Below, in pieces: positions 2,874 through 42,300 of a stretch of DNA of 64,000 bases (the first letter of the stretch is position 1; each line of letters opens with the position of its first letter). The notes under the pieces were generated by a model. The model ran no database searches, was not told where the DNA came from, and saw nothing but the letters and a program-made list of their open reading frames with translations. Source of the stretch: Salegentibacter echinorum (GTDB taxonomy: Bacteria > Bacteroidota > Bacteroidia > Flavobacteriales > Flavobacteriaceae). The DNA lies in NCBI RefSeq assembly GCF_900129445.1, contig NZ_FQVT01000002.1, positions 186,001-250,000 of the forward strand, written 5' to 3'. The translations under genes were made by a program, and so were the position numbers.

Positions 2874-2926
2874 TATACCTACCTTTACTTTGTTTCCCAC
2901 AAGTTCTGGGAAATCCGGTAGGTATA
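2874..2926. repeat. Nested hairpin in intergenic DNA
   Basis: TATACCTACC (2874-2883) pairs perfectly with GGTAGGTATA (2917-2926). Inside it TTTCCC (2893-2898) pairs with GGGAAA (2908-2913). No T-tract follows on either side, so it is not an obvious terminator. Confidence 0.6.
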
Positions 2927-3022
2927 TTAAAATGTTCAATAATTGTTTGAAAGATACGTACTCACGGTAGCTTTAAAAAGAAGGAGCGCCGGGATTATTT
3001 GGTTAAAATTAGAACTAATTTC

Positions 3023-3069
3023 AAAAAAAAACCTCACAGTCGCGCATAACTCTCGGGACTGTGAGGTTT
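3023..3069 (-). terminator. Intrinsic terminator of the M1 peptidase gene
   Basis: Stem AAACCTCACAGTC (3029-3041) pairs perfectly with GACTGTGAGGTTT (3057-3069). Read on the minus strand it is followed by a run of T (A-run on the plus strand, 3023-3031). It lies 26 bp past the stop of the gene ending at 3095. Confidence 0.85.
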
Positions 3070-3094
3070 ATATTTTAAAAAAACTGAATCGGTG

Positions 3095-4942
3095 CTACTC
3101 CTGCTCTGCTTCTTGATTTTCTTCAGCAGTATAAAGATTGTTATCTCTATTTACATCGGCCATTAGCTGAGACTCGTCAATTTCAATACTTTCAATTTCG
3201 CTTAATGGTTTGTTTATCTCTAAATCGTAAGTAGGATACGCCCAGGCCCAATCGTCTGCCACGGTCCAGTTTTCCCTGGTGGCGGGTTTTTCCCAGCGCA
3301 TCATTCGCAATGGAATATAAAATACTTCTTCAGCTCCATTGGTATAGCGAACGCTAAGTTCTATAGGCATTGGCATAAGGTTTAAACGTTCTAAAGTCAC
3401 TTTTGTAGTACCTTCATTGGCCTCGGCTACATTTTTAATTCCGTAGTCTATGGAATTGGTGGTTCGGGTCCAATCATTTAAATACCAGTCCAATTCTGCT
3501 CCCGAAACTTTTTCAGCAATTCTAATAAAATCATTGGGAGTTGGATGTTTAAATTGCCATTCATCGTAATAACGTTTCAGGGTTTTATCAAGATTATCTT
3601 TCCCAATTACGTAGCCCAGTTGTGCTAAGAATACCGCACCTTTAGAATAGGCGGCAGCGCCATAAGCAGCATTCAATGCATATCTATCTGCCTGGGTGGT
3701 TTGTGGTTGTTCCATCCCAGAGTTTGCCAGTCTTATATAGCTTCTGTAAGAACCTGTATGAGGATTTTCTGCATAAGTTTCCATTACCTGGTTCATCGCA
3801 GCGCTAGAAATGTAGCTGGTAAAGCCTTCGTCCATCCACTCGTGCGTATTTTCATTGGTAGCCATTAGATGCTGAAACCAGGCGTGCGCCAATTCATGGG
3901 CCGTCACTCCAACAAGGCTTCCAAAGTTACGTTCCCCGGTAATTAAGGTAAGCATGGCATATTCCATACCACCGTCACCACCCTGTACTACAGAATATTG
4001 ATCCCAGGGATATGGTCCTATGTGCTCGTTAAAAAATAGTAATAAGTCTTCGGTTTTTTCCTGTAGCTTTTTCCAGTTCTCCTTTATCTCGTCATTGTCT
4101 TTATAGAAAAAGTGAAGTACAGTACCGTCACTGGCAATTCGTTTATCGTGAATATATTCAGGATCTGCGGCCCAGGTAAAATCGTGAACCTTTGGCGCGA
4201 TAAAATGCCAGGTGATTTTATCATCGTTTACCGTAACTTCTTTATCGGTATAACCGTGGCCAATTTTCTCGGGATTTTGAAGATATCCTGAAGCTGCTAC
4301 GGTATAATCCTTATCTAAAGTTAGTTTTACATCAAAATCACCCCAAACTCCATGAAATTCCCGGCCTATATAAGGTGCGGCGTGCCAACCTTCAAAATCA
4401 TATTCGGCCATTTTAGGATACCACTGGCTCATAGAAAGTGCTACCCCTTCGGCACTATTTCTACCAGAACGGCGAATTTGCTTAGGTACCTGACCGTTAA
4501 ATTTCATATTTAATGTGGTTTTTTCTCCCGGTAAAATAGGTTCGTTCAACTCTACTTCCAACACGGTTCCCACGGTTTCATAGTTTAAGCGTTTTCCATC
4601 CTGGTTAAGACTGGAAACCTTTAAATAACCTTCTTCATCTTTAGATAATTTTGAAATTCGGTCACCTACTCTTCTGTCTGGATCTTGAATAGTTAAAGAT
4701 CTTACATCCATTTCACTTCCCGGTTGGAAAGCATTAAAATACAGGTGATAAAATACACGGTCTAAAGTATCTGGAGAGTTATTGGTATAAACCAGCTCCT
4801 GGGTACCTGTGTATTGGAAGTTATTTACATTCATATCTACCTCCATTTCATAATCTACGTGTTGTTGCCAGTAGCCGTTAGTGTTTTGGGCACCGGCCCA
4901 GGAGGTTGCTAAAATCGCCAGACTTAATATTATTTTCTTCAT
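3095..4942 (-). CDS. M1 family zinc metallopeptidase
   Basis: A 615-residue secreted aminopeptidase-like protein. It has a signal peptide (about 1-19, ending AGAQN), the N-terminal beta-sandwich of M1 enzymes and the catalytic domain. The zinc site is intact: H349-E350-x-x-H353 with the third ligand E372 at the expected 18-residue spacing (WMDEGF). The exopeptidase loop reads GGMEYAM (324-330), so the usual GxMEN Asn is Tyr, as in several Bacteroidota members. It lacks the large C-terminal ERAP-like domain, so it belongs to the short M1 group. The acidic tail (EENQEAEQE) is of unknown role. It probably degrades peptides in the periplasm, alongside the S8 protease gene 60 bp upstream. Confidence 0.93.
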   Translation of the reverse strand: MKKIILSLAILATSWAGAQNTNGYWQQHVDYEMEVDMNVNNFQYTGTQELVYTNNSPDTLDRVFYHLYFNAFQPGSEMDVRSLTIQDPDRRVGDRISKLSKDEEGYLKVSSLNQDGKRLNYETVGTVLEVELNEPILPGEKTTLNMKFNGQVPKQIRRSGRNSAEGVALSMSQWYPKMAEYDFEGWHAAPYIGREFHGVWGDFDVKLTLDKDYTVAASGYLQNPEKIGHGYTDKEVTVNDDKITWHFIAPKVHDFTWAADPEYIHDKRIASDGTVLHFFYKDNDEIKENWKKLQEKTEDLLLFFNEHIGPYPWDQYSVVQGGDGGMEYAMLTLITGERNFGSLVGVTAHELAHAWFQHLMATNENTHEWMDEGFTSYISSAAMNQVMETYAENPHTGSYRSYIRLANSGMEQPQTTQADRYALNAAYGAAAYSKGAVFLAQLGYVIGKDNLDKTLKRYYDEWQFKHPTPNDFIRIAEKVSGAELDWYLNDWTRTTNSIDYGIKNVAEANEGTTKVTLERLNLMPMPIELSVRYTNGAEEVFYIPLRMMRWEKPATRENWTVADDWAWAYPTYDLEINKPLSEIESIEIDESQLMADVNRDNNLYTAEENQEAEQE

Positions 4943-39327: not shown

Positions 39328-42300
39328 ATGGACAAGATGAGCAATAAGTTCCCTGAGTATAAAGGACTTGACTTACCAAAAGTAGCTGAAGAAATCTTAA
39401 GCTACTGGAAGGAAAATGATATTTTTGAAAAGAGTGTTTCCACGCGGGAAGGCCAGGAGCCTTTTGTGTTTTTTGAAGGCCCGCCTTCGGCAAATGGCCT
39501 GCCGGGAATTCACCACGTGATGGCCCGTGCTATTAAAGATATTTTTTGCCGGTATAAAACCCAAAAAGGGTTTCAGGTAAAACGTAAAGCAGGTTGGGAT
39601 ACCCACGGGCTACCCGTAGAACTGGGAGTAGAGAAAGAATTGGGAATTACCAAAGAGGATATTGGTACAAAAATTTCCGTAGAAAAATATAATGAAGCCT
39701 GTAAAAACGCGGTTATGCGTTACACCGATGTTTGGAACGACCTTACCGAAAAAATAGGCTACTGGGTAGATATGGACGACCCGTATATTACCTATAAATC
39801 CAAATATATGGAAACAGTGTGGTGGCTGCTTTCCGAAATTTATAAAAAGGACCTTATTTATAAAGGTTATACCATTCAACCATACTCCCCGAAAGCTGGA
39901 ACCGGATTAAGTTCCCATGAGCTTAATCAGCCGGGAACCTATCAGGATGTTACAGACACTACGGTTACCGCGATGTTTAGGAGCCCTCTAACCCCCGAAG
40001 GGGGAGCCAACGGGAACTCTATTTCAAAAGCTTTTGGGTTATCAAGTACTTCTCCTTCGGAAGATTTAGAGGGTGATTTCTTTTTTATTGCCTGGACCAC
40101 TACTCCCTGGACATTGCCTTCCAATACTGCCCTAACAGTGGGCAAAAAGATAAACTACGTGTTGGTAAAAACTTTTAACCAATACACTTTTGAGCCTATA
40201 AATATTATTGTTGCTGAAGATTTGGCCGATAAACAATTCGATAAAAAATTCATAAAAGTAGATAGCGAAGAAGCACTTGAGCAATACGCAGAAGGCGATA
40301 AAAAGATTCCTTATTTTATTACAGAAAAGGTTGTTAAAGGAGTAGACCTGGTAGGAATTAAATATGAGCAATTACTACCTTTTGCACAACCTGCAGAAAA
40401 TCCTGAAAATGCATTTCGTATTATTTCCGGGGATTTTGTGACCACCGAAGATGGTACCGGGATAGTGCATACCGCGCCAACTTTTGGTGCAGACGATGCC
40501 CTGGTAGCTAAACAGGCCTCTCCGCAAATTCCGCCAATGTTGGTAAAAGATGATAACGGAAACTTAGTGCCGCTGGTAGATTTGCAGGGGAGATTTCGTT
40601 CTCAAATGGGTGAATTTGCCGGCAAATACGTAAAGAATGAATATTATGATGAAGGCCAGGCGCCAGAGAAATCTGTAGATGTAGAGCTGGCTATTAAGTT
40701 GAAAGAAGAAAACAGGGCTTTTAAAGTTGAAAAATACGTGCACAGTTATCCAAATTGCTGGAGAACCGATAAGCCTATTTTATACTATCCATTAGATTCC
40801 TGGTTTATTAAAGTGACCGAATTTAAAGAGCGAATGTACGAGCTCAATAAAGGAATTAACTGGAAACCAAAATCTACCGGGGAAGGCCGGTTTGGAAACT
40901 GGCTTGCTAATGCTAACGACTGGAACCTTTCCAGAAGTAGGTATTGGGGAGTTCCTTTGCCAATTTGGAGAACCGAAGAAGGTGATGAAGAAAAATTGAT
41001 AGGTTCTATCGCCGAGTTAAAAGAGGAAATGGCCAAAGCTGTGACCGCCGGACTTATGGAAAAAGACATTTTTGAAGGTTTCGAACCCGGAAACATGAGT
41101 GATGAAAATTATGATCTGGTAGATCTGCATAAAGATGTGGTAGATGAGATCACTTTAGTTTCAGACGCAGGAAAACCAATGAAACGCGAAGCCGATCTTA
41201 TAGATGTATGGTTCGATTCAGGCTCCATGCCCTACGCACAATGGCATTACCCTTTTGAAGAAGCCCCCTCCAGCTCCCCCAAAGGGGGAGAGGCAAAAAG
41301 CCCAAAATATCAAACTGCGAGGAAGTCTTCTTATCATCTTTTGAAGGAAAAAGCAGAAGAAAGGAAGAACAATCCTACCGAAGCTGAAAAAATACTTTGG
41401 GATGCTTTAAAAGGAAAAAACCTGGGAGGTTTTAAATTTAGAAGGGAACATATAATTGATGAATATATTGCCGATTTTGTTTGCCTGGCAAAAAGTCTGA
41501 TCATAGAAGTGGACGGTGGTTATCATACCGATCCTGAAATAAAGAAAAATGATGAATTTAGAACGAAGTACCTAAAAGACAACTTTGGATATAACGTAAT
41601 CCGCTTTACCAATGAGGAAGTAATAGGAAACCTGGAAGGAGTCCTGGACAAAATTGAAGATGCCCTTGCCAAATCCCCCCTTAGGGGCCAGGGGGCTTTC
41701 ACGGCCGATTTCATAGCCGAAGGCGTTGACCAAACCCGGGGCTGGTTTTATACCCTGCATGCTATTGCAACCATGATCTTTGATGATGTAGCTTATAAAA
41801 ATGTGGTTTCTAACGGACTTGTTCTGGATAAAAACGGACAAAAAATGTCCAAACGACTGGGGAACGCTGTAGATCCTTTTGAGACTCTGGCTGCTTATGG
41901 CCCAGATGCTACCCGCTGGTATATGATCTCTAATGCAAACCCCTGGGATAACTTAAAATTTGATATTGAAGGCATTGCTGAGGTGCGCCGAAAATTCTTC
42001 GGAACTTTGTATAATACCTATTCTTTCTTTATCTTATATGCGAATATAGATGGGTTCACCTACAAAGAAAAAGATGTACCTTTAGCAAAAAGGCCGGAAA
42101 TAGATCGATGGGTGCTTTCAGAATTACATACCCTTATAAAGAAAGTCGATAAATTCTATGCCGATTATGAACCAACCCGGGCAACCCGGGCTATTTCAGA
42201 TTTTGTACAGGAAAACTTAAGCAACTGGTTTGTAAGGTTAAGCCGAAGAAGATTCTGGAAAGGCGATTATGAGCAGGATAAAATTTCTGCTTATCAAACG

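Follow-up and report, generated by a model that had tools for sequence, protein, structure and literature searches.

A DUF559 nuclease domain translated in frame within ileS of Salegentibacter echinorum: a probable unspliced homing element

The window analysed here is a stretch of 64,000 nucleotides from Salegentibacter echinorum (contig NZ_FQVT01000002.1, positions 186,001 to 250,000), which carries ileS, the essential gene of isoleucyl-tRNA synthetase (IleRS). Within this gene lies a cassette that is a complete DUF559 (Vsr-like PD-(D/E)XK) nuclease domain, translated in frame with the synthetase and bounded by palindromic ends (Table 1). The open reading frame (ORF) remains open across the whole cassette, i.e. 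the insertion is in frame and wholly coding, as in inteins. The IleRS profile TIGR00392 of NCBIfam matches the ORF in two stretches, the best of which comprises residues 13-645, and in alignments of solved IleRS structures with the ORF the match ends at residue 646 and picks up again at 788. The outer arm of the cassette possibly starts one base earlier than listed, with the A at 41262.

Table 1. Features of ileS and of its in-frame inserts (positions in the window)
Feature	Position	Strand	Basis or description
ileS, isoleucyl-tRNA synthetase, host gene, 1291 codons	39328..43203	+	open ORF; TIGR00392 951 bits
In-frame cassette GCC...GCT, 145 codons	41263..41697	+	alignment to empty alleles; limits assigned as in the duplicated cassette in metH of genome G228
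DUF559 nuclease domain, IleRS residues 673-780	41344..41667	+	Pfam PF04480, E 3.9e-30
Left palindromic end	41262..41290	+	outer arm AGCCCCCT and hairpin CTCCCCC-AAA-GGGGGAG (41274-41290)
Right palindromic end	41674..41697	+	(T)CCCCCCTTAGGGGCCAGGGGGCT, inverse arrangement of the left end
Second, shorter palindromic insert, in frame, without DUF559	39982..40073 (approx.)	+	AGCCCTCTAACCCCCGAAGGGGGAG ... TCTCCTTCGGAAGATTTAGAGGG

The cassette domain scores 104 bits with PF04480, compared to a cut-off of 20.6, and the residues expected of the PD-(D/E)XK fold are present in the order D, E, D, H (D716, E727, and D729, followed by H733, counted from the translation), forming a putative catalytic site. 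The EDxHD nucleases are likewise Vsr-like. The single relative of the domain with a solved structure is PDB 3hrl (E 4.6e-18), titled merely 'Endonuclease-Like Protein'. In a model predicted for a fragment of 478 residues, the DUF559 part (residues 201-320) has predicted local distance difference test (pLDDT) values of 81-96 in 11 of its 12 ten-residue blocks and of 71 in the first one; the synthetase surrounding the cassette is modelled poorly, with a mean pLDDT of 63.9 and a predicted template modelling score (pTM) of 0.37. Neither Pfam nor NCBIfam gave a Hint or other intein splicing domain in the ORF (E≤0.001), which rules out an intein. In all these respects the structure of the locus agrees with a preliminary description of the window, which had placed an in-frame DUF559/Vsr-like block at this position of ileS, with Asp716, Glu727, and Asp729 as its metal ligands and with no splicing domain.

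The site of the cassette is found in both occupied and empty states. In the genus, ileS could be read in 14 genomes; two of these are occupied, and the remaining 12 are empty and contain an 11-residue linker instead (FE-NKEKVEEGERQ-ADFIAEG or a close variant of equal length). Altogether, 30 ileS loci were fetched, five of which did not fit the search motif; 23 of the 25 readable ones are empty and two occupied, thus ruling out an ancestral domain of IleRS. The linker replaced by the cassette comprises 11 residues in the genus and 10-12 in more distant relatives. The foreign nature of the block, as originally proposed, is therefore upheld by the empty sites, but the proposal of a simple insert is not, since the cassette takes the place of a variable linker and does not represent a clean insertion. 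Occupied ileS sites are present in six named loci, those of S. holothuriorum, Salegentibacter sp. R32, Aquimarina sp., Psychroflexus salis, P. planctonicus, and Gelidibacter pelagius, out of 11 loci examined, where four others read as short standalone frames and one (L316) gave none; the locus of S. holothuriorum is probably the same as that of the occupied genome G003.

Similar patchiness is observed in metH, occupied in nine of the 14 genus genomes, and in leuS, occupied in two of the 14. In the tree of metH flanks, the empty G001 is the sister of the occupied G006 (bootstrap 100), showing that the two states do interchange. At both the ileS and the metH site, empty alleles coexist with occupied ones, as in homing elements. 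The occupied and empty states of metH require four changes on this tree and 4-5 on the genus trees, no fewer than with shuffled labels, so that patchiness alone is shown, and a clustering of the occupied state on these trees is not supported.

Transfer of the cassette between alleles is most clearly visible in Psychroflexus. The cassettes of P. salis and P. planctonicus are 97.4% identical, compared to 86.4% identity of ileS upstream and 80.8% downstream. Synonymous differences amount to 6/87 for the cassette, as opposed to 219/367 for flanks sampled 120 nt from it (one-sided p 3.9e-21). The best two-breakpoint segment of high identity extends over positions 2908-3469 of locus L309, with the cassette located at 3000-3430, which leaves an overshoot of ~91 nt to the left of the cassette and ~39 nt to its right. 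Being barely longer than the cassette, the tract is what would be expected from gene conversion during homing. Synonymous deficits were tested in 64 pairs (28 of ileS and 36 of metH), and 11 of these have a one-sided p below 0.05, four of which pass the Bonferroni limit. Besides the Psychroflexus pair, the latter are G003/G007 of metH (28/90 in the cassette vs 185/302 in the flanks, p 3.9e-7), G003/G006 of metH (p 2.1e-4), and S. holothuriorum/P. planctonicus of ileS (p 1.2e-4). Horizontal spread with co-conversion of short flanks is thus represented by one sharp event and, by synonymous counts, by three weaker pairs.

In populations that exchange DNA naturally, homologous recombination of the ordinary kind could act between occupied alleles with the nuclease uninvolved; this would require no special machinery and would fit the observation that just one ileS event is sharp. 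However, the Psychroflexus tract is centred on the cassette and overshoots it by very little, and no second tract of this kind was found among 116 windows of 400 nt (starts 1060-2560 and 3480-4300), where identity does not exceed 0.877, compared to ~0.97 in the cassette tract. Cassettes younger than their flanks in three further pairs that are safe under the Bonferroni limit also argue against this explanation, which we consider most improbable.

Cassettes of the same kind are not limited to ileS. The host genome itself has a second in-frame DUF559 block, in metH, with ends of the same kind, and a DUF559 match is present in 119 of 249 genomes of the family and in 170 of 296 genomes of the phylum. 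Among the 150 matches listed in the family survey, 50 lie within open frames of at least 300 codons (counted by hand). The loci that were fetched had been picked for long frames or high scores, and the fetched set is therefore uninformative on frequency. Hosts were named by reading their sequences, and ten were then checked by profile. RecG, LeuS, MetH, HsdR, and IcmF are above the curated cut-offs, with the profile match split into two or three stretches and with DUF559 adjoining the best stretch; for HsdM, HemD, a RecB-like helicase, and a PglX-like methyltransferase, the best match stays under the cut-off, and for the frame of locus L262 the sole match is to a family called 'hypothetical protein'. 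DUF559 cassettes, many of them with palindromic ends, lie in frame in metH, leuS, recG, icmF, hsdR, and further genes across the phylum.

The limits of the mobile unit are defined by metH of genome G228, which carries two DUF559 blocks. Their homology begins at AGCCCCCC..CCCCCAAAGGGGGAG and ends at GGGGGCGGGGGGGGCT, the host sequences outside being unrelated, so that it begins and ends at the palindromes and thereby delimits the unit. This pair shows that one copy moved within metH of G228 and that the length of the unit (GCC...GCT) preserves the reading frame. A separate observation concerns a phage-like protein of genome G138 (L110), which contains what appears, from a reading of its sequence, to be a true intein with a DUF559-like nuclease stretch.

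Descent of the cassettes was followed in a tree of DUF559 with 128 rows and 106 columns, in which many forks are unresolved. One supported clade (99/98) holds most of the core-gene cassettes that were sampled and comprises 60 rows, 59 of them in long host frames: 21 in metH, 19 in leuS, five in recG, three in ileS, three under a second leuS label, two in icmF, two in helicases, one in a HisD-like gene, and three unlabelled. The recG rows form one group, as do the ileS rows, and metH rows group together across several families of the phylum. L262, which comes from another type of gene, is nested among the metH rows with moderate support (91/84), as would be expected from a jump to a new gene. 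In-frame hosts such as hsdR, hemD, and hsdM branch outside this clade, suggesting more than one capture of DUF559 in frame.

The putative active site is preserved in nearly all relatives that were scored, as opposed to the loss of nuclease residues that the preliminary description had named as an argument against activity. In eight host groups (score at least 75, a filter that the degraded copies in leuS of G016 and G126 do not pass), the first D is kept in 56 of 56 rows, the E in 55 of 56, the following D or E in 56 of 56, and the H in 56 of 56. The median ratio of nonsynonymous to synonymous substitution rates (dN/dS) of the cassettes is 0.144 in metH (20/120 pairs usable), 0.227 in leuS (101/231, degraded rows included), and 0.09 in recG (4/10), compared to 0.046, 0.087, and 0.03, respectively, in the host flanks; none of the pairs of ileS cassettes were usable, as they are saturated. 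These ratios, low yet above those of the flanks, indicate that the cassettes evolve under purifying selection and are therefore constrained, although less so than their hosts.

Purifying selection would also be expected if DUF559 were an old domain that had become useful to the synthetase, for example in binding of nucleic acids, and was inherited vertically with many losses. Clades that are long-lasting and site-specific, as well as cassette divergence that is not under that of the flanks in most pairs, would be consistent with such adoption. It is difficult to reconcile, however, with the occupation of such unrelated enzymes as MetH, LeuRS, RecG, and IcmF by members of one clade, or with empty alleles that have an outgroup-like linker in common and appear at scattered positions of the tree. 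Already weakened by the cassette-centred transfer in Psychroflexus, an adopted domain appears very unlikely.

The ends of the cassette belong to a family of palindromes dispersed in the genome. The left end has the order AGCCCCCTCCAG-CTCCCCC-AAA-GGGGGAG, the first A of which is at 41262. The inverted repeats that the preliminary description had recognised at the ends are indeed present as imperfect repeats (41276-41289 vs 41674-41687, 86% complementary), but they are not private to the cassette. A search of the host genome for further copies, as that description had advised, gave 45 strand matches to the pattern of the ends, CCCCCNAAGGGGGAG, when two mismatches were allowed, vs five for a reversed-pattern control; one palindrome may score on both strands. 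A longer pattern has 30 strand matches in the host genome (G000), mostly away from cassettes, and 0-36 in the other 14 genus genomes, with 0-1 per strand for reversed controls. Matches to the longer pattern number 14-36 in the six genomes whose cassettes have intact-looking ends and 0-13 in the nine others (exact Mann-Whitney p 0.0002, or 0.0008 once an estimate for the ends of the cassettes themselves is subtracted, with genome classes that were set after the counts were known and with related, hence non-independent, species). Hairpins on both sides within 140 nt accompany 40 of 90 in-frame DUF559 domains and two of 332 random segments, and a hairpin on at least one side is found in 68/90 and 33/332, respectively. 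The corresponding values for standalone DUF559 genes, 19/39 and 36/39, are not relied upon because they are confounded by intergenic terminators.

Palindromes of this family may also lie in frame within genes on their own. The shorter insert in ileS (Table 1) is translated as RSPLTPEGG...SPSEDLEG, and at the same site 12 of 13 other genus genomes contain a KITDASAASVEKDLEG-like sequence, the remaining one, G012, having a degenerate palindrome-like stretch. In the host genome, similar palindromes are in frame in a DegT-like aminotransferase (L018, contig C19) and in a protein with a MeaB-like GTPase domain (L019, contig C28), both named by reading their sequences, and palindrome units supply the final codons of two open frames, L010 and L014 (...APQPPKGE stop and ...APQTPKGE stop). 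In leuS of G267 (L209), a palindrome alone occupies the site that in other genomes is taken by DUF559 cassettes, and the metH block of the same genome (L179) has palindromic ends that are far longer and different. Genome G014 contains three standalone DUF559 genes in tandem (L048), 94-99% identical and with the same palindrome in between.

Palindromes without DUF559 that are this common in the genome, and that occur in frame alone in the second ileS insert, in leuS of G267, and in L018 and L019, raise the question whether DUF559 is only a passenger, carried between two palindromes that are themselves mobile and are moved either by another enzyme, for example a Y1 transposase associated with repetitive extragenic palindromic (REP) elements, or by recombination between repeats. 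REP elements of this kind are palindromic units spread genome-wide, two of which, in inverted orientation, enclose a DNA-processing gene. A Y1_Tnp match is indeed found in 14 of 15 genus genomes, the host genome included. However, the Y1-type transposase gene of the host (L287, C29:74495-74839) has a different repeated motif upstream (GCTTCAGAGAAGCGA...), and its 3.3 kb contain no CCCC-GGGG palindrome; six more Y1 loci that were scanned in other genomes gave none either. A REP-associated tyrosine transposase (RAYT) is thus unsupported as the mobiliser of the palindromes, and the place between inverted units that the Y1 transposase takes in REP/RAYT (REPIN) elements is taken here by DUF559. Since the number of palindromes also tracks the cassettes with intact-looking ends, and the catalytic residues of DUF559 are conserved, we regard a passenger role as unlikely.

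Taken together, these data make it probable that the cassette is a homing element that is tolerated by translation within its host protein, without splicing, and that rarely jumps to new genes. The proposal of a mobile, unspliced cassette whose ends read through as coding sequence was already part of the preliminary description, and is well supported by the empty sites, the many host genes, the metH pair of G228, and the Psychroflexus tract. In the mechanism that we envisage, the unit would consist of a DUF559 (Vsr-like) reading frame between two palindromic repeat units, with ends lacking a stop in the host frame, so that the host enzyme would be made with an additional surface domain. As part of this enzyme, the nuclease would nick or cut an allele without the cassette, in or near the linker, and repair from the occupied copy would carry over the cassette together with a short flank. 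More rarely, the unit may reach a new locus, with the palindromic ends serving as its limits, and would survive there only where the reading frame and the fold tolerate it, as in variable linkers of core enzymes. The cost to the host is perhaps small because the cassette takes the place of such a linker. Judging by its conserved residues, DUF559 would make the DNA break, and its catalytic step can be proposed by analogy with the family, namely with the DUF559 protein of Caulobacter and with EDxHD homing nucleases. What the sequences show directly are the boundaries of the unit, its in-frame presence in many genes, the patchy occurrence of occupied and empty states, transfer between alleles centred on the cassette, and purifying selection; delivery of the nuclease by the host protein and the manner of first entry of the unit into a gene are inferred.

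Several observations weigh against this interpretation. The Psychroflexus transfer is one clear event, which short-tract homologous recombination could in principle produce, and in 53 of the 64 pairs the synonymous divergence of the cassette is not significantly under that of the flanks (one-sided p ~0.05 or more), and many pairs are near saturation; in some metH pairs the cassette is even more diverged than the flank, e.g. 0.81 vs 0.54 in G006/G004. Between transfers, the cassette therefore seems to be passed on together with the gene that hosts it. Not all members of the 60-row clade are in-frame cassettes, L241 being a standalone gene. The leuS copies of G126 and G016 (L109, L111/L203) are degraded and still in frame, with an eroded active site, and might represent an end stage of the element, while metH of G004, G008, G009, and G014 has partly degenerate ends. 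Hairpins on both sides are limited to the 40 of 90 in-frame domains given above, and the two ends in the window, folded alone as DNA, are no more stable than shuffled sequences (z -0.90 and +0.54), so that their hairpin stability was dropped as evidence. Two pattern tests on 15 genomes did not confirm that the ends always match the palindrome family of the host genome: the G267-type end pattern has exact copies just at two places in the metH region of G267 and once in G000, and the G528-type pattern has eight strand hits in G528 and 0-2 in 14 other genomes. Terminal inverted repeats, a trait of insertion sequences and miniature inverted-repeat transposable elements, are present, and no target-site duplication was seen at the cassette, where it would not be recognisable because the host linker is replaced. 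Finally, cutting by DUF559 is predicted from conserved residues, and the domain could be a passenger as discussed above.

If this interpretation is true, homing into the middle of core genes would need no splicing, but just a tolerant linker and open ends. A part of the DUF559 family would gain a function, a mobiliser would be suggested for a family of palindromic repeats, and the extra domains in LeuRS, IleRS, MetH, and RecG would be explained. Titles and the beginnings of abstracts in the open-licence literature gave no description of DUF559 as an in-frame mobile element, which is weak evidence of absence, and no report of DUF559 together with a tRNA synthetase.

Comparison of the cassette with known systems reveals partial similarity to several of them. 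Homing elements have been sorted into inteins, intron-encoded nucleases and, as a newly introduced group, downstream WHO elements (PMC7282813), and EDxHD nucleases belong to the known families of homing enzymes (PMC3943268). With inteins that contain homing endonucleases and with Vsr-like/EDxHD homing nucleases such as I-Bth0305I, the cassette has in common that it is wholly coding and in frame in conserved genes, that the nuclease is encoded inside, that occupied and empty alleles exist, and that short flanks are co-converted (PMC3943268). Inteins, however, are removed by splicing, whereas the cassette lacks a splicing domain, ends in palindromic repeats, and has a nuclease of the DUF559 family. 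The yeast WHO elements likewise target a core metabolic gene for homing and need no protein splicing (PMC7282813). The ORF of ileS is open and has no recognised splicing domain, and the function of its IleRS is predicted from sequence. A WHO element, though, is a gene of its own downstream of FBA1, the 3' end of which it replaces (PMC7282813), whereas the cassette is internal to ileS and translated with its host.

Rickettsia palindromic elements share with the present family the occurrence of in-frame palindromic repeats within many unrelated proteins (PMC10969869, PMC3733652), represented here by the shorter ileS insert and by metH, leuS, recG, and others. Those elements are ~150 bp long and are found in another phylum, and the available text of these sources mentions no nuclease (PMC10969869, PMC3733652), while the cassette is a 435-bp unit with a nuclease, accompanied by short copies that lack one. 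REP elements with RAYT transposases also combine genome-wide palindromic units with a DNA-processing gene between two inverted units (PMC3733652), but this gene is a Y1 transposase and not a PD-(D/E)XK nuclease of the DUF559 family, and the Y1 gene of the host lies beside another repeat. VsrA of Caulobacter, a member of the DUF559 family and a predicted Vsr-like nuclease, causes a DNA-damage response in cells without a methyltransferase (PMC12907096). It is free-standing, unlike the cassette within its host protein, and has a proposed role in mismatch repair, mobility being unmentioned in the accessible part of that report (PMC12907096).

The cassette thus combines features of inteins, WHO elements, and Rickettsia palindromic elements, while corresponding to the full definition of none of them, and we regard it as a variant among homing elements and possibly as a structural class of its own. 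Whether such a separate class is justified, namely a homing element that lies inside the host gene, is never removed, stays in essential enzymes as a permanent translated domain, makes the host protein itself the homing nuclease, and can shed nuclease-free palindromic copies that likewise remain in frame, appears to us to be evenly balanced.

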